Below, in pieces: positions 5,653-30,222 of a stretch of DNA of 64,000 nucleotides. Origin of the DNA: Hydrogenimonas urashimensis. GTDB lineage: Bacteria; Campylobacterota; Campylobacteria; Campylobacterales; Hydrogenimonadaceae. Numbering within the stretch: position 1 is the first letter of the stretch; every line of letters starts with the position of its first letter. Under the pieces are notes generated by a model. It did not search any database. It saw nothing but the letters and a program-made list of their open reading frames with translations, and had not been told where the DNA came from. The stretch covers positions 2,024,001 through 2,088,000 of the forward strand of contig NZ_AP023212.1 in assembly GCF_016593255.1 (NCBI RefSeq), read 5' to 3'. The translations under genes and the position numbers were made by a program.

Positions 5653-6663
5653 ATGGTCATTTCACTTCATTCTCCTCTTGATATGCATCTGCATCTTCGG
5701 GACGAAGAGATGCTCGACATCGTCGCACCGCTGAGTGCCCGGACCTTTGCGGGAGGGCTTGTCATGCCCAATCTCGTGCCGCCCGTGACGACGGCGGAGG
5801 ATGTTGCACGATACCGCGGGAAGATACGCAAAGCGCAGGGGGAGAACCGTTTTGTGCCCTACATGACTCTCTTTTTCAAATCGGACTATACCCCGGAGTT
5901 TCTCGAGAGTGTCCGGGATGAGATTCTCGCCATCAAGCTCTATCCGGCGGGCATCACGACCAACTCCGAAGGGGGTGTGAGCGGTTTCGATCTCAAAGAG
6001 CTTTCGCCGGTGCTGAGCGTCATGAGCGACCTGGGCATCCCGCTGTGCGTCCACGGGGAGACGGGCGGCTTCGTCATGGACAGAGAGGCGGAATTCATTC
6101 CGATCTACGAGAGGCTTGCCGAAAATTTTCCCGATCTGACGATTGTCATGGAGCATATCACCACCAAGGAGGCGGTCGAAGCGCTGGAGCGCTACGAAAA
6201 TCTTTATGCGACGATCACGCTGCACCATCTCTACATCACCCTCGACGATGTGGCGGGGGGACTGCTGCAGCCCCACCTTTTCTGCAAGCCGATCGCCAAG
6301 CGGCCCGAAGACAGGAGCGCACTTCTCAACGTGGCGCTGGAAGCCCATCCGAAAGTGATGTTCGGGTCCGACTCGGCCCCCCATCCGCGGGAGAAAAAGG
6401 AGGCGCCGGGATGCGCCGCGGGCGTCTTTACGGCACCCATCGCCCTTCAGGGGCTCGCCCAGCTTTTCGACAGACACGGAGCGTTGGAGAATCTGCAGGC
6501 TTTCGTCAGTGACAACGCCCAGCGTATCTACGGTATTCGACCTTTGGAAAAAGAGGTGGTTCTGGAAAAAACAGCGTGGCTGGTACCCGAAATCTATGAA
6601 GGAACGGTGGTCCCGATGTTCGCCGGAGAGAGCCTGGAATGGAGAATCGTGAGTGCAGGCTAA
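5653..6663 (+). CDS. pyrC: Dihydroorotase (class II)
   Basis: Catalyses the reversible cyclisation of N-carbamoyl-L-aspartate to dihydroorotate in pyrimidine biosynthesis, in the cytosol. At 336 residues it has the usual length of class II PyrC. Binuclear zinc ligands are all present: HLHLR (His12, His14), the carboxylated Lys95 in IKLYPAG, His134 in CVHGETGG, His168 in MEHITT, and the catalytic Asp240 in FGSDSAPH. The ATG at 5653 is preceded by AGAAGG. The response regulator gene begins inside its last codons (11-nt overlap), so pyrC leads an operon with a two-component system and ExbB/ExbD; I see no functional reason for that linkage. Confidence 0.95.
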
Positions 6664-7309
6664 AGTGCTGCTTCTTGAAGACGACCGGCTCTTCGGAGAG
6701 ACGCTTGTCGATTTCCTGGAAGGAGAAGGATACGAGGTCGAACATTTTCTTGCGGCGAAACCTGCGATCGAAGCGGTATACGAGTATGACGGATTCGATC
6801 TCTATCTGTTGGATGTCAATGTGCCCGATCTCAACGGGTTTGAGCTTCTGAAGCAGCTGCGCGAAAGCGGTGATATGACGCCGGCGATCTATATCACCTC
6901 CGCCAGAGATAAGGAGGCGCTGGCAAGAGGGTTTCACAGCGGGGGCGACGACTATATGAAAAAGCCGATCGACCTGGATGAACTGCTGCTTCGGATCGAA
7001 GCGCAGCTTCGCCGCCGGCAGGGCAGCGGGAAAATAGAGGTGGGGAAGTATCTTTTCGACATGGAGCGGCTGGTGCTCTACCAAGACGGCGAGCCGGTAC
7101 AGCTTCCCAGAAAACTGGCGGAACTTCTCGGGCTTCTGCTGAAAAACCGGGGCGAGGTCGTGCAAACGGAAGAGATCCTTCGGGAGATATACGGCGAAGA
7201 GAACCCCGGAACGGGTGTGCTTCGGGTCTATATCACCAAACTCAAACAGCTTTTCGGAAAAGAGAGCATCAGAAACATTCGGGGTGTGGGTTACTGTTTC
7301 GATGCATGA
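6653..7309 (+). CDS. OmpR-family response regulator
   Basis: A 218-residue transcriptional regulator partnering the histidine kinase that follows. The receiver domain (about residues 1-118) has the acidic pocket (Glu9, Asp10, Asp11), phospho-acceptor Asp54 in LLDVNVPD and Lys104 before Pro. The C-terminal winged helix (about 125-218) has the OmpR/PhoB pattern, ending in [10 protein letters not shown]. It starts with GTG overlapping the pyrC 3' end by 11 nt, so translational coupling is likely. The target is unknown; its position suggests control of the ExbB/ExbD transport genes downstream, as inference. Confidence 0.93.
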
Positions 7310-7324
7310 GAACGGAAATGCCGC

Positions 7325-8203
7325 ATGAAACGCAGGGAGATCACGAAAGTCCTCCTCTTCTATGTCGTGACATTCGTTTCGATGGCGGTGCTGATGTGGG
7401 TAGTCTTCGAAAACTTCGGATACAGCAACGAGAATTTTCTGATCGTCACACTGATGCTTCTGCCTCTTTCGCTGCTTTTCGGATATATCCTCTCCAAAGT
7501 GGCGCTCGAACCGCTCTTTATCACCAACGATCTTCTCGACAAACTCCTCAAAGACACCCTTCACGAACTCAATATCCCCCTATCTACGATCTTTGCCAAC
7601 GTTGCCATGCTCAAACGCCGGGAGGAGGACCCGAAAAAGGTGACGCGCCTGGAGCGAATCGAAAAGGCGGCGGAAAATCTGGGAGAACTCTACGAGGATC
7701 TCGACTACTTCATCAAGAAAGAGATCGGCACCGTGGAGCGGGAAACTTTCGATCTGGATCGCGTGATTGAATCGGCCATCCTCAAGATGGAGGAGATACG
7801 GGGCGATATTTCGATACAATACACTCCGACAGGCTACGTTGTAAAAGCCGACAGGCGCGGATGCCAGAAGGCTGTGGACAACCTGCTTTCCAACGCCATC
7901 AAATACAATCGCAAAAAGGGGCAGGTGGAAATTTCGGGCGAGAACGGGTGGCTCGTGATCCGCGACAGCGGTATCGGCATGGACGAAACGACCCTCTTCA
8001 ACATTTTCGACCGTTACTATCAGAGCGATTTGAGCGCATCGGGATACGGCATAGGCCTGCACATCGTCAAAACCTTCTGCGACGAGCACGGCATCGAGAT
8101 CAAAATCGATTCGAAAGCGGGAGAGGGGACCACGTTTCGGCTCAATTTCGCAGCGGCCTTCCCGAAAACGGATGTGACAAACGAGGAAAGAAATGAAAAG
8201 TGA
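7325..8203 (+). CDS. Sensor histidine kinase
   Basis: A 292-residue membrane kinase, presumed to phosphorylate the response regulator encoded just upstream. Two membrane segments (about residues 8-28 and 38-56) enclose only about ten periplasmic residues, so it has no real periplasmic sensor domain and may sense the membrane itself or a partner. The dimerisation/phospho-acceptor motif is TLHELNIPLS with His80. The ATPase domain shows the N box (DNLLSNAIKYN), the G1 box (RDSGIGMDE) and the G2 box (SGYGIGLHIVK). Its 3' end overlaps the ExbB start by 11 nt, which links sensing tightly to the transport genes. Confidence 0.93.
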   Translation: MKRREITKVLLFYVVTFVSMAVLMWVVFENFGYSNENFLIVTLMLLPLSLLFGYILSKVALEPLFITNDLLDKLLKDTLHELNIPLSTIFANVAMLKRREEDPKKVTRLERIEKAAENLGELYEDLDYFIKKEIGTVERETFDLDRVIESAILKMEEIRGDISIQYTPTGYVVKADRRGCQKAVDNLLSNAIKYNRKKGQVEISGENGWLVIRDSGIGMDETTLFNIFDRYYQSDLSASGYGIGLHIVKTFCDEHGIEIKIDSKAGEGTTFRLNFAAAFPKTDVTNEERNEK

Positions 8204-8633
8204 TACGATAACCGATCTGGTCGACTACGGATTTATAGGAGTACTGCTTCTTATGAGCGTCATCGCGCTCTGGCTGATTCTGGAACGCTATTTCTATTAC
8301 CGGCATGTCGATCTTCGAAGTTTCAAAGAAAAAGAGGAGTTGGAGATCGCACTGGGAGAGAACCTGACGATGATCGCCTCGATCGGGGCGAACGCCCCTT
8401 TTATCGGTTTGCTGGGGACCGTTGTCGGCATCATGGTGACATTCGTGACGATCGGGCAGAGCGGTCTGGTGGAGACCAAAGAGATCATGGTGGGGCTCGC
8501 ACTCGCCCTCAAAACGACAGCGGGCGGCATACTGGTGGCGATTCCTGTCGTATGGCTCTACAATATGCTGGGCAGAAAGGCCGAAATTCTCGTGGCACAA
8601 TGGGAAATGATGAAACGCAGAGGGGAAATTTGA
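8193..8633 (+). CDS. exbB: ExbB/TolQ/MotA-type proton channel subunit
   Basis: A 146-residue inner membrane protein of the ExbB family, forming with ExbD the proton channel that energises TonB-type transport. Three hydrophobic segments are visible (about 12-32, 65-88, 105-128) with the family-specific GLLGTVVGIM and ALKTTAGGILVAIP stretches. It is short for ExbB, as are many Campylobacterota versions. It overlaps the kinase gene and precedes exbD, with no TonB gene nearby, so it may serve a TonB encoded elsewhere (one lies at 37.9 kb with its own ExbB/ExbD) or a different force-transmitting partner. Confidence 0.88.
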   Translation: MKSDTITDLVDYGFIGVLLLMSVIALWLILERYFYYRHVDLRSFKEKEELEIALGENLTMIASIGANAPFIGLLGTVVGIMVTFVTIGQSGLVETKEIMVGLALALKTTAGGILVAIPVVWLYNMLGRKAEILVAQWEMMKRRGEI

Positions 8634-8682
8634 TGGTCCATCGAATTGTCGGAAATCGGGAAAAAGTTTCTATTCGGACATC

Positions 8683-9060
8683 ATGAAAATCAAAAAATTC
8701 GATCAGATCAACGTTCTGCCTTTTATCGACATCATGCTGGTGCTGCTTGTCATCGTCCTGACCAGTGCTTCGTTCGTTTCCAAAGGGACCATTCCCGTCG
8801 ATCTTCCCGAGGCGAGCAGTACGAACGCGCCGATTGAGAAAATGCAAAGCATCGTCATCGACAAGGAAGGCAATTTCTATTTCGAAGAGAAAAAGATGAG
8901 TTTTGATGCACTCAAAGCGAAAATTCTCTCTCTCGATCCGAAAAAAGATGCGCTCATCATCAAAAGCGATGCGAAGAGTCAGTTTCAGAATTTCGTCAGG
9001 GTGATCGACCTTCTGAAGTCAAAGGGATTCGAAAAAATCAGTATCGAGACCAAACAGTAA
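8683..9060 (+). CDS. exbD: ExbD/TolR-type proton channel subunit
   Basis: A 125-residue protein with one N-terminal membrane helix containing the proton-relay Asp16 (PFIDIMLVLLVI) and a periplasmic domain ending in a FVRVIDLLKSKGFEKISIET type segment, as in ExbD. The 49 nt between exbB and exbD contain no clear terminator. Forms the ExbBD motor with the preceding gene. Confidence 0.9.
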   Translation: MKIKKFDQINVLPFIDIMLVLLVIVLTSASFVSKGTIPVDLPEASSTNAPIEKMQSIVIDKEGNFYFEEKKMSFDALKAKILSLDPKKDALIIKSDAKSQFQNFVRVIDLLKSKGFEKISIETKQ

Positions 9061-9941: not shown

Positions 9942-10111
9942 GATCTTCTCCTTCTGAATGGGATTGTTTAGTCGATCTGTGCAGAAATTCTATATCAAAG
10001 AGGCTTAAAAATCAAGATCTTATCGCACTAAATATTGGCGCTTGCACACGATTTGCACATTCCGGTGATAGTGTAGGGTACAGGTCCAGACAGGGACGGA
10101 AAGGATTGCCA

Positions 10112-10552
10112 ATGCAACTGCGTAGATTCTATGCCGAATATTCCCGGGCGGCAGGCTATCTCAAATCGCCTTCCCTCCTTTTTATGCGCCTCATTTTGGC
10201 TCACGGTTTCTACGAACCGGCCATGATGAAATGGAACGATATCGCTGCCGTGAGCGAATGGTTTGCATCGCTTGGAATGCCGATGCCGACACTCAACGCT
10301 TATATGGCGGCTGCAACGGAATTGATAGGAGTGGTACTTCTGACACTGGGGTTCATGACCCGATTTATTGCGCTGCCGCTTATTGTCGTAATGGTTGTGG
10401 CGATTGCCACAGTGCATCTGCCCCACGGATTTTCAGCCGGAAACAACGGGTTCGAGATACCTCTTTACTACATGATCATGCTTTTTGCGCTGATGGCGCA
10501 CGGAGCGGGCCGATTCAGCCTGGACCGCCGGCTCTTCGGAGAGGATGCCTGA
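10112..10552 (+). CDS. DoxX family membrane protein
   Basis: A 146-residue inner membrane protein with four predicted membrane spans and the DoxX pattern: an N-terminal LFMRLILAHGFYEPAMMKW stretch, ASLGMPMPTLNAYMAAATEL, then GFMTRFIALPLIVVM and a final YMIMLFALMAHGAGRFSLDRRL. DoxX-like proteins are linked to redox or quinone-related roles, but function here is unknown. ATG 10112 has AAAGGA six nt upstream. The gap 10553-10798 holds only a weak hairpin near 10629-10650 and no gene I can support. Confidence 0.85.
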   Translation: MQLRRFYAEYSRAAGYLKSPSLLFMRLILAHGFYEPAMMKWNDIAAVSEWFASLGMPMPTLNAYMAAATELIGVVLLTLGFMTRFIALPLIVVMVVAIATVHLPHGFSAGNNGFEIPLYYMIMLFALMAHGAGRFSLDRRLFGEDA

Positions 10553-17934: not shown

Positions 17935-18459
17935 TCAGTAGAATCGATGGATCTCTTCGAGAAGATTGTCGAAAGTGACATCCTCTCCCGCTTCGTGCAA
18001 TACTTCGTTGAGGTACTTTTCGCTGGCCTCCATACCGCCCTCTTTTTCGATTTCCGTCAACTTTCTGTAGAGCGGGTCGAGGACATCCTTGACATGTTTT
18101 GAGACCGCTTTGCGATAGGCACGGTATCCTGTAATCTCCTTGGTGTTGATGTCACGGATGATTTCGAAGTGGGTGAACACCCAGTAGTAGCGTCCGTCCT
18201 TGGCCAGGTTCTTGATGGCGACGTTGATGTTCTTGCCCGCTTTCAGACGGTCCCACAGGAGTTTGAAAGCGATTTTCGGCATGTCGGGATGACGGACGAT
18301 ACTGTGGGGCTGACCGATCAGTTCGTCCCTGGAGTACCCCGATATTTCGCAGAAATAGTCGTTGACATCGGTGATGATCCCTTTCGTATCCGTCTGGCTT
18401 TCGATGTATTTGGTATTGTCGAGTTGAATCTCTTCGTTTTTAGGTTCCGGTCGCTTCAT
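17935..18459 (-). CDS. Single PAS-domain protein (Aer-like), divergent from nosZ
   Basis: 174 residues with one PAS domain (about 20-130) of the Aer/redox-sensing kind: GIITDVNDYFCEISGYSRDELIG, then HSIVRHPDMP, and DGRYYWVFTHFEIIRD. There is no output domain; a short helical tail ends the protein. Such proteins may bind FAD or act as stand-alone chemotaxis/energy-taxis modules. I chose ATG 18459 (AGGGG upstream) over 18477 because the predicted transcript starts near 18483, leaving a 24-nt leader. It shares a symmetric FNR-type site with nosZ, suggesting co-induction under oxygen limitation. Confidence 0.8.
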   Translation of the reverse strand: MKRPEPKNEEIQLDNTKYIESQTDTKGIITDVNDYFCEISGYSRDELIGQPHSIVRHPDMPKIAFKLLWDRLKAGKNINVAIKNLAKDGRYYWVFTHFEIIRDINTKEITGYRAYRKAVSKHVKDVLDPLYRKLTEIEKEGGMEASEKYLNEVLHEAGEDVTFDNLLEEIHRFY

Positions 18460-18489
18460 GGAATGCCCCTTTTTCATTATTTTAACTGA

Positions 18490-18495
18490 TTTATA
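18490..18495 (-). promoter_or_regulatory. -10 box of the PAS gene promoter
   Basis: TATAAA on the minus strand, separated by exactly 22 nt from the FNR-type box at 18518-18531. With a start point about 7 nt downstream (near 18483), the box centre is at -41.5. Confidence 0.55.
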
Positions 18496-18517
18496 CTATA
18501 AATGATTTTGCAAAAAA

Positions 18518-18531
18518 TTGACATACGTCAA
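18518..18531. promoter_or_regulatory. CRP/FNR-family operator shared by nosZ and the PAS gene
   Basis: TTGAC-N4-GTCAA, a dyad close to the FNR/DNR consensus TTGAT-N4-ATCAA. The arms are perfectly complementary. Matching -10 hexamers lie 22 nt away on both sides (18490-18495 minus, 18554-18559 plus), placing the centre at -41.5 for both divergent promoters, the class II activator position. A specific regulator gene is not present in the window. Confidence 0.75.
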
Positions 18532-18553
18532 GAAAAATTAACGTTAAATTAAC

Positions 18554-18559
18554 TATTAT
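18554..18559 (+). promoter_or_regulatory. -10 box of the nosZ promoter
   Basis: TATTAT 22 nt downstream of the FNR-type box. The predicted start near 18566 gives a leader of about 72 nt. The leader includes TTAAC/GTTAA repeats at about 18539-18553. Confidence 0.6.
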
Positions 18560-18637
18560 TTTAACATGCAGTTTGGGTTTTTCATTTAATTGAAAAACTC
18601 AGCCTGTAATTTCAGGAAAACTTAAAAAGGAGGCAGC

Positions 18638-21241
18638 ATGAGTTCGATCGTCAAGAAGCTATCGATGATAGCGATCGGTACTCTGGTAGGTGTGTCGATG
18701 GCCTCCGCCAGTTCAGAGCTTGAAAAAGTGATGAAAGAGCGGGGACTGACGCAGCAGGATCTGCTGGCGGCAGCCAAAACCTACACACCCAGCGGCGGAC
18801 GGGACAAATACATCGTATTCAGTTCCGGTGGACAGTCCGGACAGATCATCGTATACGGTGTACCGTCCATGAGAATTTTGAAGTATATCGGTGTCTTCAC
18901 GCCCGAGCCCTGGCAGGGATGGGGATATGACGATGACACCAAGAAAGTGCTGGCCCAGGGTAAAATTCGCGGTAAACAGATCACCTGGGGTGACACGCAC
19001 CACCCGGCGATTTCCGAAACGAATGGCAAATACGACGGCAAGTGGCTGGTCATCAACGACAAGGCCAACCCGCGTCTCGCCGTGATCGATCTGAGCGACT
19101 TCGTTACCAAACAGATCGTCGTCAACCCCGTTTTCAAATCGGACCACGGCGGGGCTTTCTTTACGCCCAACAGCGAATATATCCTCGAAGCGTGCCAGTA
19201 CGGTGCACCGCTTGATAACAACTACCATCCGATGGATGAGTATGCCGAGAGCTTCAGAGGTGGTGTCACTGTCTGGAAATTCGACCATAAACACGGAAAG
19301 ATCCTTCCGGAAAAATCGTTCACGATCGAAATGCCCCCCTATATGCAGGACCTCTCCGATGCCGGTAAAGAGGCGAGCTACGGATGGGGTTTCACCAACT
19401 CTTTCAATTCCGAAATGTATACCGGTGGTATCGAAAAGGGGCTTCCACCGTTTGAAGCGGGAATGAGCCGGAACGATACCGACTACCTGCATGTCTATAA
19501 CTGGAAAAAACTGGCCAAACTGGCGGAAAATCCCAAAAACGTCAAGATCATCAACGGTCACAAGGTCATTCCGATCGATGTCGCCGTCAAAAACAATGCC
19601 CTTTTCCTGATTCCTGAACCGAAATCTCCACACGGTGTCGATGTCAGCCCGGATGGCAAATATATCGTTGTCTGTGGCAAGCTCGATACCCATGCGACGG
19701 TTTACAGCTGGGATAAAATCAAAAAGGCGATCGACAGCAAAGATTTTGTCGGCAAAGATCCCTACGGTATTCCGATCATCGACCTGAAAAAAGCGGCGCA
19801 CTGTCAGGCTGAATTGGGCCTCGGACCCCTGCATAACCAGTACGGACCGAAATGGAAAACGGAAGGGGAGATCTATACATCTCTCTATGTTGACAGCCAG
19901 GTTGTCAAATGGAACTACCTGAAATGTAAAGTCGAAGACCGTGTCAACGTCAACTACAACATCGGCCACCTCTGCGGTATGGAGGGCAAAACGGAAGATC
20001 CTCAGGGCGAATATATCATCGCGCTCAACAAACTGGCGATCGACCGCTTCAATCCCATCGGGCCTTTGCATCCGCAAAACCACCAGCTTATCGATATCCG
20101 CGGCAAGAAGATGCAGCTTCTGTACGATATGCCTCTGCCTCTGGGTGAACCCCACCAGGCTGTTGCGATCCGTGCCAGCAAGCTCCATACCCATGTTCGC
20201 TACAAGATGGGCACCAACCCCTTCACCGGCAAAATCCATGAAGGCAAGACTCTGGCGGGACAGGAGAAAATCGTTCGCAAAGGCAACCATGTCTATGTCT
20301 ACGGTACCGTTGTACGTTCGCATATCAACCCAGAGCATGTCACTGTCAATCTGGGAGATACGGTCACCTTCTACCTGACCAACCTGGAGCGGGCGGAAGA
20401 CGAAACCCACGGATTTACTGTGGATGATTACAATATCCATGCCTCTCTCGAGCCTGGCAAAACGGTTGCATTGACATTCAAAGCCGACCGCGAAGGTGTC
20501 TTCCCATACTACTGTACAGAGTTCTGTTCGGCGCTTCACCTGGAGATGATGGGTTATCTGCTCGTCAAAGATCCGAACAAGAAATATGTCTCCGCGCATA
20601 AACTGAAAATGGCGAAAATGTCTCCCGAGCAGCTGAAAAAAGAGTATGAGAAGATCGTTGCGACCAATGCGGCGACCGACAAGGTCATCCAGAGTGTCGT
20701 GAAGTTCCTCAAAGAGAACCATTACGAAAAATATCCGGTCGTCAAGCAGCTCGTCGAGGATGCCCTCGATCAGTACGGCAAGATTCCCGAGCAGAAGAAG
20801 AAAGCTGACGAATATCACAAAAAAGGTGATCTTGAAAAAGCGATTCTGTTTGAGAACATGATCTGGCAGTACATGGTCAAAACGGCGGACGTCGGCATTC
20901 GTGCCCGAGACTTGCTGATCCGCAAAATCGCGACACCGATGAGCGAAGCGGCCAAACGCGGTGAAGTCGCCTTCAACGAAGGTGGATGCGGTGGTTGCCA
21001 TGTTATCGGCAAAGTTTCGTCCGGACCGGATTTGACCGGTGTTCTCCAGCGACACGAAAATGGTGAAAAATGGGTAGCGGAATTCATCAAAGATCCGAAA
21101 TCCAAATATAACGATCCGTATGTCAAATCGATGATCAACTACTTCAATCTGCGCATGCCGAATCAGGGTATGAGCGATCAGGAGATCAAGGATATCATCG
21201 AATACTTCAAGTGGGTGGATGAAAACGCCAACCTCTTCTAA
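18638..21241 (+). CDS. nosZ: Nitrous oxide reductase, clade II, with C-terminal cytochrome c domain
   Basis: Periplasmic enzyme reducing N2O to N2. 867 residues, longer than clade I NosZ because of the fused heme domain known from Wolinella-type enzymes. A Sec signal peptide (about 1-25) without a twin-arginine motif is typical of clade II. The beta-propeller (about 60-540) carries the His ligands of the CuZ site, including GGAFF and SPHGVDVSPDGKY surroundings. The CuA cupredoxin domain has His591 and Cys626-x3-Cys630-x3-His634-x2-Met637. The heme motif CGGCH is at 784-788. AAGGAGG precedes the ATG. It is the first gene of the nos cluster and has its own FNR-type promoter. Confidence 0.98.
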   Translation: MSSIVKKLSMIAIGTLVGVSMASASSELEKVMKERGLTQQDLLAAAKTYTPSGGRDKYIVFSSGGQSGQIIVYGVPSMRILKYIGVFTPEPWQGWGYDDDTKKVLAQGKIRGKQITWGDTHHPAISETNGKYDGKWLVINDKANPRLAVIDLSDFVTKQIVVNPVFKSDHGGAFFTPNSEYILEACQYGAPLDNNYHPMDEYAESFRGGVTVWKFDHKHGKILPEKSFTIEMPPYMQDLSDAGKEASYGWGFTNSFNSEMYTGGIEKGLPPFEAGMSRNDTDYLHVYNWKKLAKLAENPKNVKIINGHKVIPIDVAVKNNALFLIPEPKSPHGVDVSPDGKYIVVCGKLDTHATVYSWDKIKKAIDSKDFVGKDPYGIPIIDLKKAAHCQAELGLGPLHNQYGPKWKTEGEIYTSLYVDSQVVKWNYLKCKVEDRVNVNYNIGHLCGMEGKTEDPQGEYIIALNKLAIDRFNPIGPLHPQNHQLIDIRGKKMQLLYDMPLPLGEPHQAVAIRASKLHTHVRYKMGTNPFTGKIHEGKTLAGQEKIVRKGNHVYVYGTVVRSHINPEHVTVNLGDTVTFYLTNLERAEDETHGFTVDDYNIHASLEPGKTVALTFKADREGVFPYYCTEFCSALHLEMMGYLLVKDPNKKYVSAHKLKMAKMSPEQLKKEYEKIVATNAATDKVIQSVVKFLKENHYEKYPVVKQLVEDALDQYGKIPEQKKKADEYHKKGDLEKAILFENMIWQYMVKTADVGIRARDLLIRKIATPMSEAAKRGEVAFNEGGCGGCHVIGKVSSGPDLTGVLQRHENGEKWVAEFIKDPKSKYNDPYVKSMINYFNLRMPNQGMSDQEIKDIIEYFKWVDENANLF

Positions 21242-21350: not shown

Positions 21351-21392
21351 TTGACCTGTATCAAATAATAGATAGACAATTTAATGTATAAT
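21351..21392 (+). promoter_or_regulatory. Second FNR-type promoter, upstream of nosB
   Basis: The box TTGAC-N4-ATCAA at 21351-21364 is followed, after 22 nt, by TATAAT at 21387-21392. The expected start near 21399 puts the box at -41.5, the same geometry as at nosZ, and gives a 24-nt leader to the nosB ATG. Confidence 0.75.
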
Positions 21393-21422: not shown

Positions 21423-22211
21423 ATGAAAAGTTCATTGACCAAGGCGAGAATATTTACATTCATCGCGTTTGGGCTGCTGATGTACTATTTTGTCATTCCG
21501 GCAGTGTTTACCCACGATGTGATAGAGCTGGTACGTGCGGGAAAGGCCGACAAGATTCCTCCCGTAGCCTACAAGGTGTGGAACTACTACGCGAAAAACA
21601 TATACGTCAGCCCCTCCACACCCAAAGAGGCGGTAGGCGATCTAAAGAAAATGATAGAAGAGGATGCAGAACTCTCTGTCGTCTCCGCCCCTATCTGGTA
21701 TGTGGCGCTTGAAGCGCCCAACTACCCCAAAGAAGCCTTCCCGGAAGGGATTCCCGTCTATTACCACTTCGACGGATTCAGTGGTGACGTGCACGAGATG
21801 AACACGATCAACCATTATATCGGTATGGATCCGATGGAAAGGGGAGCACCCTATCTGCGCGCGCTGGCGCCCTATGCCCTTGTGCTCGTGGCACTTTTAA
21901 TGATCTATTACATGGTGTATGACAGCAAAATCCTGGATTTGCTGATGCTGCTTCCCGTTGTACTGCCTGTCATATTTTTGGGATTTTATGCCTACTGGCT
22001 CTACTGGTTCGGCCACCATATGCACGAGTGGGGAGCTTTCAAAATCAAACCCTTCATGCCCACGGTTTTCGGTGACGGCAAAGTGGCCCAGTTTACGACC
22101 CATTCCTATCCGACGACGGGCTTTTGGATACTGCTGGCCATCAGTGCATTCAGTCTGTTGGCGATCATTTCCAAGAAAAAAGCGCGCAAACTGGCTGCGG
22201 CAGAGGCATAA
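21423..22211 (+). CDS. nosB: NosB, membrane protein of Wolinella-type nos clusters
   Basis: A 262-residue membrane protein matching NosB by position directly after nosZ and by topology: one N-terminal span (about 10-28), a periplasmic region of about 120 residues, then four hydrophobic spans ending in a basic tail. His/aromatic-rich loop WFGHHMHEWGAFKIKPF between the last spans could contact a metal or quinone. NosB has no proven biochemical function; it is restricted to clade II clusters and presumably helps NosZ maturation or electron supply. ATG 21423 is preferred because AAGGA precedes it and upstream in-frame starts lie before the predicted transcript start. Confidence 0.85.
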   Translation: MKSSLTKARIFTFIAFGLLMYYFVIPAVFTHDVIELVRAGKADKIPPVAYKVWNYYAKNIYVSPSTPKEAVGDLKKMIEEDAELSVVSAPIWYVALEAPNYPKEAFPEGIPVYYHFDGFSGDVHEMNTINHYIGMDPMERGAPYLRALAPYALVLVALLMIYYMVYDSKILDLLMLLPVVLPVIFLGFYAYWLYWFGHHMHEWGAFKIKPFMPTVFGDGKVAQFTTHSYPTTGFWILLAISAFSLLAIISKKKARKLAAAEA

Positions 22212-26280: not shown

Positions 26281-26930
26281 TGGGCAGCATTGTCGTCGAA
26301 GCGAAAAACGTGACGAAAACTTTCATGGGAGTGCGGGTGCTCGACAATGTCTCTCTCTCCATCGCGCTGGGTGAGAGGGTGGCCATGATGGGGCCAAACG
26401 GTGCAGGAAAGACGACATTCGTCCGAACGGTTCTCGGTTTTTACCATATCGATGGAGGTTCGCTCAGGGTCGAGGGATTCGATCCTGCAAAAGAGAGGAC
26501 GAAAGTTTTGCAAAATATCGGTTTCATCCCTCAGCTGCCCCCGCCGGTGAAGCTGAGCATTTCCGAACTTCTGACCTTTGTGCAGCGGAGTACCGGCAGC
26601 CCCAAAGAGGCGATCGTCGCCCAGGCGGAGGCGATGGACCTGGACATTCGCAGCCATCTGCACAAACCCTTTTTCAAGCTTTCCGGCGGCATGAAACAGA
26701 AGCTTCTTATCGCCATCGCTTTGGCGAGACGAAGCCGTCTTCTCATTTTTGACGAGCCGACGGCCAACCTGGATCCAAAGGCGCGGGAGCACTTCTACCG
26801 TCTCCTTTCGTCGATCGACTACGAGCACTCGACGATATTCATCACCCACCGTATCGAAGAGATCGAGGGGTTGGCGAACAGGCGAGTCTATATGGATCTT
26901 GGCAAGGTAGTGGAAGATGAGAGACTATAG
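26280..26930 (+). CDS. nosF: NosF, ABC transporter ATPase
   Basis: ATPase subunit of the NosFY transporter that works with NosD to supply a sulfur-containing component for CuZ. 216 residues: Walker A GPNGAGKTTF (about 38), signature LSGGMKQKL, Walker B RLLIFDEPTANLD, and switch His in FITHR. The ATG at 26280 overlaps the nosH stop. A NosL gene and a repeat tract separate it from nosY, unlike the Wolinella order nosF-nosY-nosL. Confidence 0.95.
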   Translation: MGSIVVEAKNVTKTFMGVRVLDNVSLSIALGERVAMMGPNGAGKTTFVRTVLGFYHIDGGSLRVEGFDPAKERTKVLQNIGFIPQLPPPVKLSISELLTFVQRSTGSPKEAIVAQAEAMDLDIRSHLHKPFFKLSGGMKQKLLIAIALARRSRLLIFDEPTANLDPKAREHFYRLLSSIDYEHSTIFITHRIEEIEGLANRRVYMDLGKVVEDERL

Positions 26931-26981
26931 GTCGCGAAGCGGCTCGCTTCCTCAGATGATCGGTGGTTTCAAGGAAGTGGA

Positions 26982-27086
26982 CGCTCATCGCTCATCGGTC
27001 GGGGGAGGCGTGCTTCGTGCGCCGATTCGCGATTTCGGGTTTTTGGTTTCCTTTTCCCGTTTTCTGTTCTCTGTTCTTTTTGTCTC
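26982..27086 (+). repeat. Degenerate heptanucleotide tract A
   Basis: Sequence with 7-nt periodicity between nosF and the lipobox of the next gene: GCTCATC twice at 26983-26996, and GTTTTCT-GTTCTCT-GTTCTTT at about 27059-27079, joined by T/C-rich, irregular units. It overlaps the N-terminal coding part of the following NosL protein. Confidence 0.6.
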
Positions 27087-27495
27087 CATGACCCTCTTTG
27101 TGACAGGATGTGAAAAAAAAGATTGGCACCAACCGGAGAAAATCCATTGGGACAGAGATATGTGCGAGCGGTGCAAAATGGCCATCAGCGAACGAAAATA
27201 CGCCGTGGAAGTGATCGATCCCAAAACCCGCAGACACTACAAATTCGACGATATCGGCTGCGCGATCCTGTGGTTCAAAGAGGAACATCTCGATTGGGGC
27301 GATGAAGCGATCATCTGGGTCAAAGACGGCAAAACGGGAGAGTGGATCGATGCTAGAAAAGCGTGGTATTCGACCAATAAAATCACGCCGATGGGATACG
27401 GATTCACGGCCTACAAAACCAAAGACGAAGCCGGTGGCGGTGAAGTGATCGATTTCGAAGAGGTCAAACGGCGTGTCATCAAGATAGGACGATGA
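27010..27495 (+). CDS. nosL: NosL-type copper-binding lipoprotein (copy 1)
   Basis: Outer- or inner-membrane lipoprotein that binds Cu(I) and delivers it to apo-NosZ. The NosL domain has CERCKMAI (Cys-x2-Cys-x-Met), then FDDIGCAILW, WIDARKAWY and TPMGYGFTAY. The start is uncertain: GTG 27010 places the lipobox Cys (FVTGC) at residue 34, a normal signal length, while ATG 26917 (14-nt overlap with nosF) would put it at residue 65. The N-terminal coding part is made of the heptamer tract, so a repeat expansion may have rebuilt the signal peptide. It sits between nosF and nosY. Confidence 0.85.
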   Translation: MLRAPIRDFGFLVSFSRFLFSVLFVSMTLFVTGCEKKDWHQPEKIHWDRDMCERCKMAISERKYAVEVIDPKTRRHYKFDDIGCAILWFKEEHLDWGDEAIIWVKDGKTGEWIDARKAWYSTNKITPMGYGFTAYKTKDEAGGGEVIDFEEVKRRVIKIGR

Positions 27496-28526: not shown

Positions 28527-29012
28527 ATGAGACGATTGCTGTCGGTATTGATGGTTGTGGCCCTGGGACTTTTCGCGGCACAGAATCAGAAGGTGAAAGA
28601 GGAAGTGGCGTTCGACCCGGTCTACGGTCTGCCGATTGGAAAATATCCGAAGTTCGAGGCGGACGTGATTCTCAAGGACGGCCGTACCATCCGTTTCTGC
28701 TGCGTCAAAGCGATGCTCGATTTCTACTATCGCCCCTGGCTCTTTCCCGAATTCAAGGTAAGCCGTGACAGAAAAGAGATCGAAAGGATGATCGTCAGAG
28801 ACTATCTCGACGGCACGAAAACCGAGGCGGAAAAAGCCTGGTACGTTTACGGCAGCCGGGTTGCCGGCCCCCACGGTGACGACCTGATTCCGCTCGGTTC
28901 GAAGGTTCGTGCCGAACTCTTCGTCAAACGGTACGGAGGCTCGCGTATCATGGATTTCAAGACGGTGAAGCAGAAAGGTTTCGGCCTGATCGATTTCCTC
29001 GACTCTCCTTAA
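28527..29012 (+). CDS. NosL-like protein lacking the CxxCGM copper motif (copy 2)
   Basis: 161 residues with a cleavable-looking signal (about 1-19). It aligns well with the second domain of the next gene: PxYPKFEADV against KHPKWAAFI, RDYLDGTKTEAEKAWYVYGS against RDYYTLKPVWAKEAWYVVGS, GDDLIPLGSKVRAELFVKRYGG against GNELIPFKEKKAAENFMRDHHG. Where NosL has CPVCGM, this protein reads DPVYGL, so both Cys and the Met are gone. It has instead FCCVKAM about 25 residues later. AAGGGGG lies ten nt upstream of the ATG. Likely an altered-specificity or scaffold NosL; function unknown. Confidence 0.82.
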   Translation: MRRLLSVLMVVALGLFAAQNQKVKEEVAFDPVYGLPIGKYPKFEADVILKDGRTIRFCCVKAMLDFYYRPWLFPEFKVSRDRKEIERMIVRDYLDGTKTEAEKAWYVYGSRVAGPHGDDLIPLGSKVRAELFVKRYGGSRIMDFKTVKQKGFGLIDFLDSP

Positions 29013-29061
29013 CAGAGAGTTAATGCCTCTTCGGTATGATAGTAAAAAAGAAGGAGAGACC

Positions 29062-30222
29062 ATGAAGCGTCTGATTGCAGCCTTGTTGCTTGGTATCGGG
29101 CTTTTCGTCTATGCCGATGCGGCGGCGTTTGGCAAGATGGCCACCAAAAAACCGGAACTGATACAGCAGGGACCCCAGAAGATGTGGTGTTCGGTGTGCG
29201 GGATGAATCTGAAGATGTTCTACAAAACATCCCACGCGGTGATCCTTGAAGACGGTACGAAAAAGCAATACTGCTCCATCCGCTGTCTCGCGGCAGACTG
29301 GCCGAATATCTCCCAAAAGGTCAAGAAAATCCTGGTCGTCGATGCGGCGACGGAAAAACTGATCGATGCGAAGCGGGCCCATTATGTCGTCGGTTCGAAA
29401 GTCAAAGGGACCATGAGCATGACCAGCAAGATCGCTTTCGGGTCGCTGGAAGATGCCCGGGATTTTCAGAGAAAATTTGGCGGAAAAATCGTCGATTTCG
29501 ACGAGGCGTTCGCGATGGCACGGGAGAGTCTCGCCAAAGATTCGATGATGATAGCGAAGAAGAAAGAGAAAAAGATGTATCCAATGGGTGAGAGAATCTA
29601 CAAAAAGATGTGCCGGCCCGTGGATGTGTCGAAATATGCCCGCATCAACGAACTCAAAGCGGCAATCAAAACGGAAAAACTCTGCAAACCGATGAAAGAG
29701 AAGCAGCTTCAGGCCGTGGCGCTTTACCTGTGGGACATCAAAGGAGGACACGTCCCCGCATCGCCAGAACGTACCGCAAAGCATCATGGGAAGAACGAAG
29801 GAAATATGCCCGAAGTCGGCAGAGAGGAGAAGTGTCCGGTCTGCGGCATGTTCGTTTACAAGCATCCCAAATGGGCCGCTTTCATCTACTACGAAAAGAA
29901 CGGCAGGCTGGCCCACCTGGCCTTTGATGGTGTCAAAGACATGATGAAATTCTATTTCAACCCCGGCAAATGGGGCGATTACGGCGATATCAAAAAGCAT
30001 ATCAAAAAAATCGTCGTCCGCGACTACTATACGCTCAAGCCGGTCTGGGCGAAAGAGGCGTGGTATGTGGTAGGCAGTGATGTCTACGGCCCCATGGGCA
30101 ACGAGCTGATTCCTTTCAAGGAGAAAAAAGCGGCGGAAAATTTCATGCGTGACCATCACGGCAAGAAGCTGCTGCGATTCGATCAAATCACCCAAGAGCT
30201 TGTCTACAAACTGGATGAATAG
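29062..30222 (+). CDS. nosL: Two-domain NosL protein with cytochrome-like linker (copy 3)
   Basis: A 386-residue exported protein. Domain 1 (about 35-155) has CSVCGM (Cys43, Cys46, Met48) plus YCSIRC. Domain 2 (about 255-380) has CPVCGM (Cys258, Cys261, Met263). Between them (about 172-235) lies a stretch shaped like a small c-type cytochrome, from MGERIYKKMC to LQAVALYLWDIKGG, but without CxxCH. The ATG 29062 has AAGGAGAG upstream and a 20-residue signal peptide. I infer two Cu(I) sites in one chaperone for NosZ loading. The next gene starts inside its last codons. Confidence 0.88.
   Translation: MKRLIAALLLGIGLFVYADAAAFGKMATKKPELIQQGPQKMWCSVCGMNLKMFYKTSHAVILEDGTKKQYCSIRCLAADWPNISQKVKKILVVDAATEKLIDAKRAHYVVGSKVKGTMSMTSKIAFGSLEDARDFQRKFGGKIVDFDEAFAMARESLAKDSMMIAKKKEKKMYPMGERIYKKMCRPVDVSKYARINELKAAIKTEKLCKPMKEKQLQAVALYLWDIKGGHVPASPERTAKHHGKNEGNMPEVGREEKCPVCGMFVYKHPKWAAFIYYEKNGRLAHLAFDGVKDMMKFYFNPGKWGDYGDIKKHIKKIVVRDYYTLKPVWAKEAWYVVGSDVYGPMGNELIPFKEKKAAENFMRDHHGKKLLRFDQITQELVYKLDE

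Follow-up and report, generated by a model that had tools for sequence, protein, structure and literature searches.

The locus examined here raises the question of whether a single CRP/FNR-type box can serve two divergent promoters, one of nosZ and the other of a gene for a PAS protein, and which regulator and signal would then act on it. We analyzed a 64,000-nucleotide stretch of the Hydrogenimonas urashimensis chromosome (referred to as the window), in which nosZ, encoding a clade II N2O reductase with a C-terminal cytochrome c (18638-21241, + strand; the nearest named relative is from a Hydrogenimonas MAG, 92%), and the gene of a single-domain, 174-residue Aer-type PAS protein (17935-18459, − strand) point away from each other. 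Between them lies the Nss/DNR-type CRP/FNR box TTGACATACGTCAA (18518-18531, no strand assigned), an exact dyad with the letters TTGAC-ATAC-GTCAA that matches TTGA-N6-TCAA exactly and is conserved in seven congeneric lineages and upstream of nosZ in Campylobacterota. No other exact TTGACNNNNGTCAA occurs in the 64 kb; boxes with one or two mismatches were rejected as signal, their counts in the window being at chance level. A −10 hexamer for nosZ, TATTAT (18554-18559, + strand), is located to the right of the box and one for the PAS gene, TATAAA (18490-18495, − strand), to the left, and the gap to the box is exactly 22 nt on both sides, which would place the transcription starts near 18566 and 18484, respectively. 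The first-pass annotation had reported the box as well as both hexamers and their spacings, and all of these are as it described them. Moreover, the box at 18518-18531 is genuine and beyond chance, as confirmed by an excess of its spacing genome-wide and by its enrichment over shuffled sequences upstream of nosZ.

For the nosZ side, we compared 78 nosZ upstream regions from Campylobacterota loci, the window included, which were reduced to 68 by dereplication. An exact TTGA-N6-TCAA in the right region was found in 45 of the 78, and 59 have a box with at most one mismatch. The stricter TTGAY-N4-RTCAA occurs in 36/68 dereplicated upstreams, compared with a mean of 0.14 and a maximum of 3 in first-order shuffles, while each spacing other than N4 gives 0 or 1 match. 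When the upstreams were superimposed by their boxes instead of being aligned, a −10 consensus emerged at positions 23-28 past the box, and 31 of 39 control nosZ loci have a −10 matching at least five of six positions at 22-23 nt. The site would thus be centred near −41.5, as in the class II promoters of E. coli FNR (PMC3688515). The proposal that nosZ has a class II CRP/FNR box is therefore borne out by conservation across the phylum and by the −10 at the class II distance, and the sequence comparison gives solid support for assigning the nosZ half of the switch to a known kind. We also found a second box that the first-pass annotation did not mention, TTGACCTGTATCAA (21351-21364, no strand assigned), which has the same geometry before nosB (21423-22211, + strand), with a TATAAT −10 (21387-21392, + strand) 22 nt away.

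The closest described systems are the Nss regulon of Wolinella succinogenes (NssA/B/C; nap, nrf and nos) and the TTGA-N6-TCAA sites of Nitrosophilus labii, which in the portions of the accounts used here resemble the present case in consensus, distance to the start and target genes, and in having a CRP/FNR-type regulator near nap (PMC6682613, PMC11539149). In N. labii the same box consensus and distance are given for napA, norE and nosB, while nosZ has four two-mismatch sites, unlike the exact box here; the transcripts of nosZ and Crp/Fnr are negatively correlated there, which counts against an activation model (PMC11539149). Within those same portions, a box shared between divergent promoters is not described, and neither is the TTAAC repeat discussed below (PMC6682613, PMC11539149).

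We then asked what reads the box, using the whole genome (2.30 Mb, single contig). TTGAY-N4-RTCAA has 29 sites, whereas nine other spacings total 103, a mean of 11.4 (Poisson P 1e-5); about half of the 29 sit within reading frames and are probably there by chance. Intergenic boxes that have a −10 hexamer 22-23 nt away are found upstream of napA, a NirDL-like gene, a hemerythrin gene, nosB, and genes for a multihaem cytochrome and a porin, and before genes adjoining a haem-copper (nor-like) subunit, a set resembling an Nss/DNR-type denitrification regulon. Three CRP/FNR proteins are encoded, and just one has an FNR/DNR-type recognition helix (TPETLSR, E-x-x-S-R type); the other two were rejected as readers of the box since they lack the ExxSR helix. 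The gene of this candidate regulator (G000:C1:835625-836263) adjoins napA, the regulator was found in 16/18 congeners, and the TPETLSR helix is present in 16/18 loci examined. Its best match among solved structures is Pseudomonas aeruginosa DNR (PDB 3dkw, E 6e-15), with which it shares the ExxSR helix, although the two are distant in sequence and NO or haem sensing by the candidate is putative. An O2-sensing FNR requires four Fe-S cysteines, and the candidate has one, unlike E. coli FNR with its Fe-S cysteine set. Low oxygen perceived through an Fe-S FNR, one of the two signals suggested earlier, is consequently not supported, as the sole candidate is also closest to DNR; since this DNR-like protein with a single cysteine is encoded beside napA, nitrogen oxides appear to be the likelier signal.

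On the other side of the box, the start codon of the PAS gene is probably at 18459 rather than at 18477, because AAGGGG precedes the ATG at 18459, the orthologues begin with MKRPEP, and the leader would shrink to just ~6 nt if translation began at 18477. Judged from its sequence, the PAS domain is Aer/CetB-like: the best solved match is the PAS domain of E. coli Aer (8dik, E 2e-24), the flavin motif R-H-x-D is common to both (PMC2628428), with VRHPDMP, which includes the RHPDMP motif, aligned with Aer, and the protein stands alone as does Campylobacter jejuni CetB (PMC2628428). In contrast to Aer and CetB, it has no adjoining chemoreceptor gene that we could find and is linked to nos instead. 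Of the 298 genomes of the order, 56 have a full-length orthologue, and nosZ is present in 50 of these 56 compared with 71 of the 242 others (Fisher 6e-17, uncorrected for kinship). Outside the genus, nos genes are found within ~8 kb of the orthologue at 32/43 loci, where it usually follows nosY-nosL directly, as opposed to 0/17 for close paralogues. The connection between the PAS protein and N2O respiration, previously argued from the promoter, is thus strengthened by gene neighbourhood and co-occurrence, and on these comparative grounds it stands independently of the promoter evidence. The suggestion that the protein is taxis-like fared less well: a chemoreceptor-tip motif, the one sequence motif used, was found at just 3 of 60 PAS loci scanned, so a taxis role is unproven, and a CetA-like partner adjoining the PAS gene was rejected as the motif has no match at the window locus. 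A PAS gene is drawn in the denitrification figure for N. labii and is not discussed in the portion of that account used here; our literature search found no paper that discusses a nos-cluster PAS gene, which does not prove absence.

Whether the box also serves the PAS promoter is the harder part of the question. In seven box-bearing lineages, all of one genus, the box, the nosZ −10 and a PAS-side block, TTTATAC-W-ATAAA, are kept at fixed mutual distances; among them the PAS start codon lies anywhere between 58 and 120 nt from the box, whereas both 22-nt spacings are invariant. A PAS-side −10 with at least five of six matches at 22-23 nt is present in 5/7 lineages and in 4/39 control loci (P 0.0016), a result that depends on the cut-off, as the difference is gone at four of six or better (P 0.15). 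This loss of contrast is what would be expected if the box served nosZ only, the PAS gene being transcribed from a separate promoter, weak or constitutive, and TATAAA being an accident of AT-rich DNA or of a TTTATA-N-TATAAA palindrome; the block TTTATACTATAAA is itself palindromic. Such an arrangement would also agree with the nosZ boxes found phylum-wide without a PAS neighbour and with six congeners (L124-L127, L129 and L132) in which the PAS-nosZ pair is kept and the left half of the nosZ box is gone. The fixed 22-nt PAS-side distance in seven lineages and the difference at the stricter cut-off speak against it, and we regard exclusive use by nosZ as rather unlikely. Because the divergent pair exists without the box in these six relatives, shared control is not essential. 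The earlier claim that one dimer serves both genes is thus upheld as far as the two fixed spacings are concerned and is unproven beyond that, and from the sequences shared control appears likely in this species and not general. The regulator was found in five of the six box-less congeners, and the nosB box is kept in most. In the same six, an RGGGCTG-like sequence occupies the place of the left half-box, with TTTCAAG and the TTAAC repeat kept. One congener (G161; L147 and L158) has two nosZ copies ~3 kb apart, each 96% identical to that of the window, with a box upstream of the PAS-side copy only.

The geometry bears on what the shared dimer would do. With only ~82 bp between the two predicted starts, polymerases would run into each other over the box, as would be expected if the CRP/FNR dimer activated nosZ and repressed the PAS promoter by blocking or competing. 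We consider this quite improbable, given that the distance on the PAS side is that of class II activation and that other families have the PAS gene downstream in the nos cluster in the same direction, probably co-expressed. It is sterically doubtful that one dimer could act as a class II activator towards both sides simultaneously, and with starts so close together the two polymerases would probably take turns at the divergent promoters. Our literature search found no account of a single divergent shared class II FNR site, and this is not proof of absence.

A second element, overlooked in the first-pass annotation, is situated in the interval from the box to the nosZ −10: a direct repeat, TTAAC-N6-TTAAC, with an 11-bp period (18538-18553, + strand). 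Sites of the OmpR/PhoB family consist of two half-sites in direct repeat with an 11-bp period. The repeat shares this layout and period and looks like a putative OmpR/PhoB-type site, with binding predicted; it matches no described regulator, and our literature search found no description of it as a conserved control element. An inverted NssR-type TTAAC-N4-GTTAA was rejected, since the conserved form is the direct repeat. TTAAC-N6-TTAAC is present in 28 of the 78 nosZ upstreams and in 23/68 after dereplication (shuffles 0.16, maximum 2), and N6 alone is enriched, other spacings from 2 to 12 occurring in 0-2 upstreams each. In 12 loci the repeat starts exactly 20 nt from the box start, four times after it and eight times before it (reversed). 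Among its six genome sites, one is at nosZ, two are before TonB receptors, and one (G000:C1:888268, L163) is before genes for a CxxCxM membrane protein resembling NosL (weak Pfam NosL match) and a SafE-like protein; the other two, upstream of an acetolactate-synthase-like gene (13987) and within a reading frame (257782), do not suit any common theme.

The best candidate reader of the repeat, named from gene neighbourhood, is an OmpR-type response regulator (6653-7309, + strand) with its partner histidine kinase (7325-8203, + strand), which are followed consecutively by exbB and exbD (6653-9060 in all) and have relatives beside or near nosZ in several genera. That copper is the signal of this system is a guess from the gene list. 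An HvfX-family protein (copper-binding RiPP maturation) is encoded at 10106-10552, ~8 kb from nosZ, and a 388-residue protein with two NosL matches at 29056-30222, preceded by NosL-like genes at 26917-27495 and 28527-29012. The OmpR-type system might even be the main nosZ switch, with the CRP/FNR box auxiliary and losable. In the PAS-nosZ intergenic alignment the repeat is retained irrespective of the box (12 of 13 distinct sequences have it exactly, and the remaining one differs by a single base), and its enrichment at a single spacing and the nos-linked regulator-kinase relatives fit such a role. However, the exact repeat is absent from most box-bearing nosZ upstreams, and its position between box and −10 suits a repressor as well as an activator, leaving a primary role for this system fairly improbable in our estimate.

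Taken together, we moderately favor a model in which one DNR-type dimer activates nosZ and the divergent PAS gene, with its counterpart at the nosB box and an OmpR-type co-input. A DNR/Nss-type CRP/FNR protein would bind the box at 18518-18531 and, at −41.5, activate nosZ as a class II activator; the second box would do likewise for nosB, and the other half of the same dimer would activate the PAS gene in this species and its box-bearing congeners, with the polymerases probably alternating. The OmpR-type regulator would probably bind the TTAAC repeat, and the presence of nitrogen oxides would lead to joint production of N2O reductase and a flavin redox sensor. The box, the spacings, their conservation, the candidate regulator and the nos linkage of the PAS gene can be read directly from the sequences; binding, activation, the signal and the use of one site for both promoters we infer from them. 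What is new lies in the proposed double use of the box, in a PAS family linked to nos and in the combination of box and repeat as a composite element.

No biological sink of N2O other than NosZ is known, and few studies address how clade II nosZ is regulated. The analysis provides a promoter map with a box, a repeat and two starts, together with single candidates for the CRP/FNR regulator and for the two-component system and with a PAS protein conserved in nos clusters. If the nos-linked system does bind the repeat, nitrogen oxides are joined by a second input to nosZ. More tentatively, and as a possibility for many Campylobacterota, nosZ may be controlled jointly by a nitrogen-oxide CRP/FNR protein and an OmpR-type system linked to nos; the latter would also control TonB receptors and a NosL-like protein and perhaps connect nosZ with copper supply, and a nos-linked Aer-type PAS protein would report the redox state of N2O respiration.
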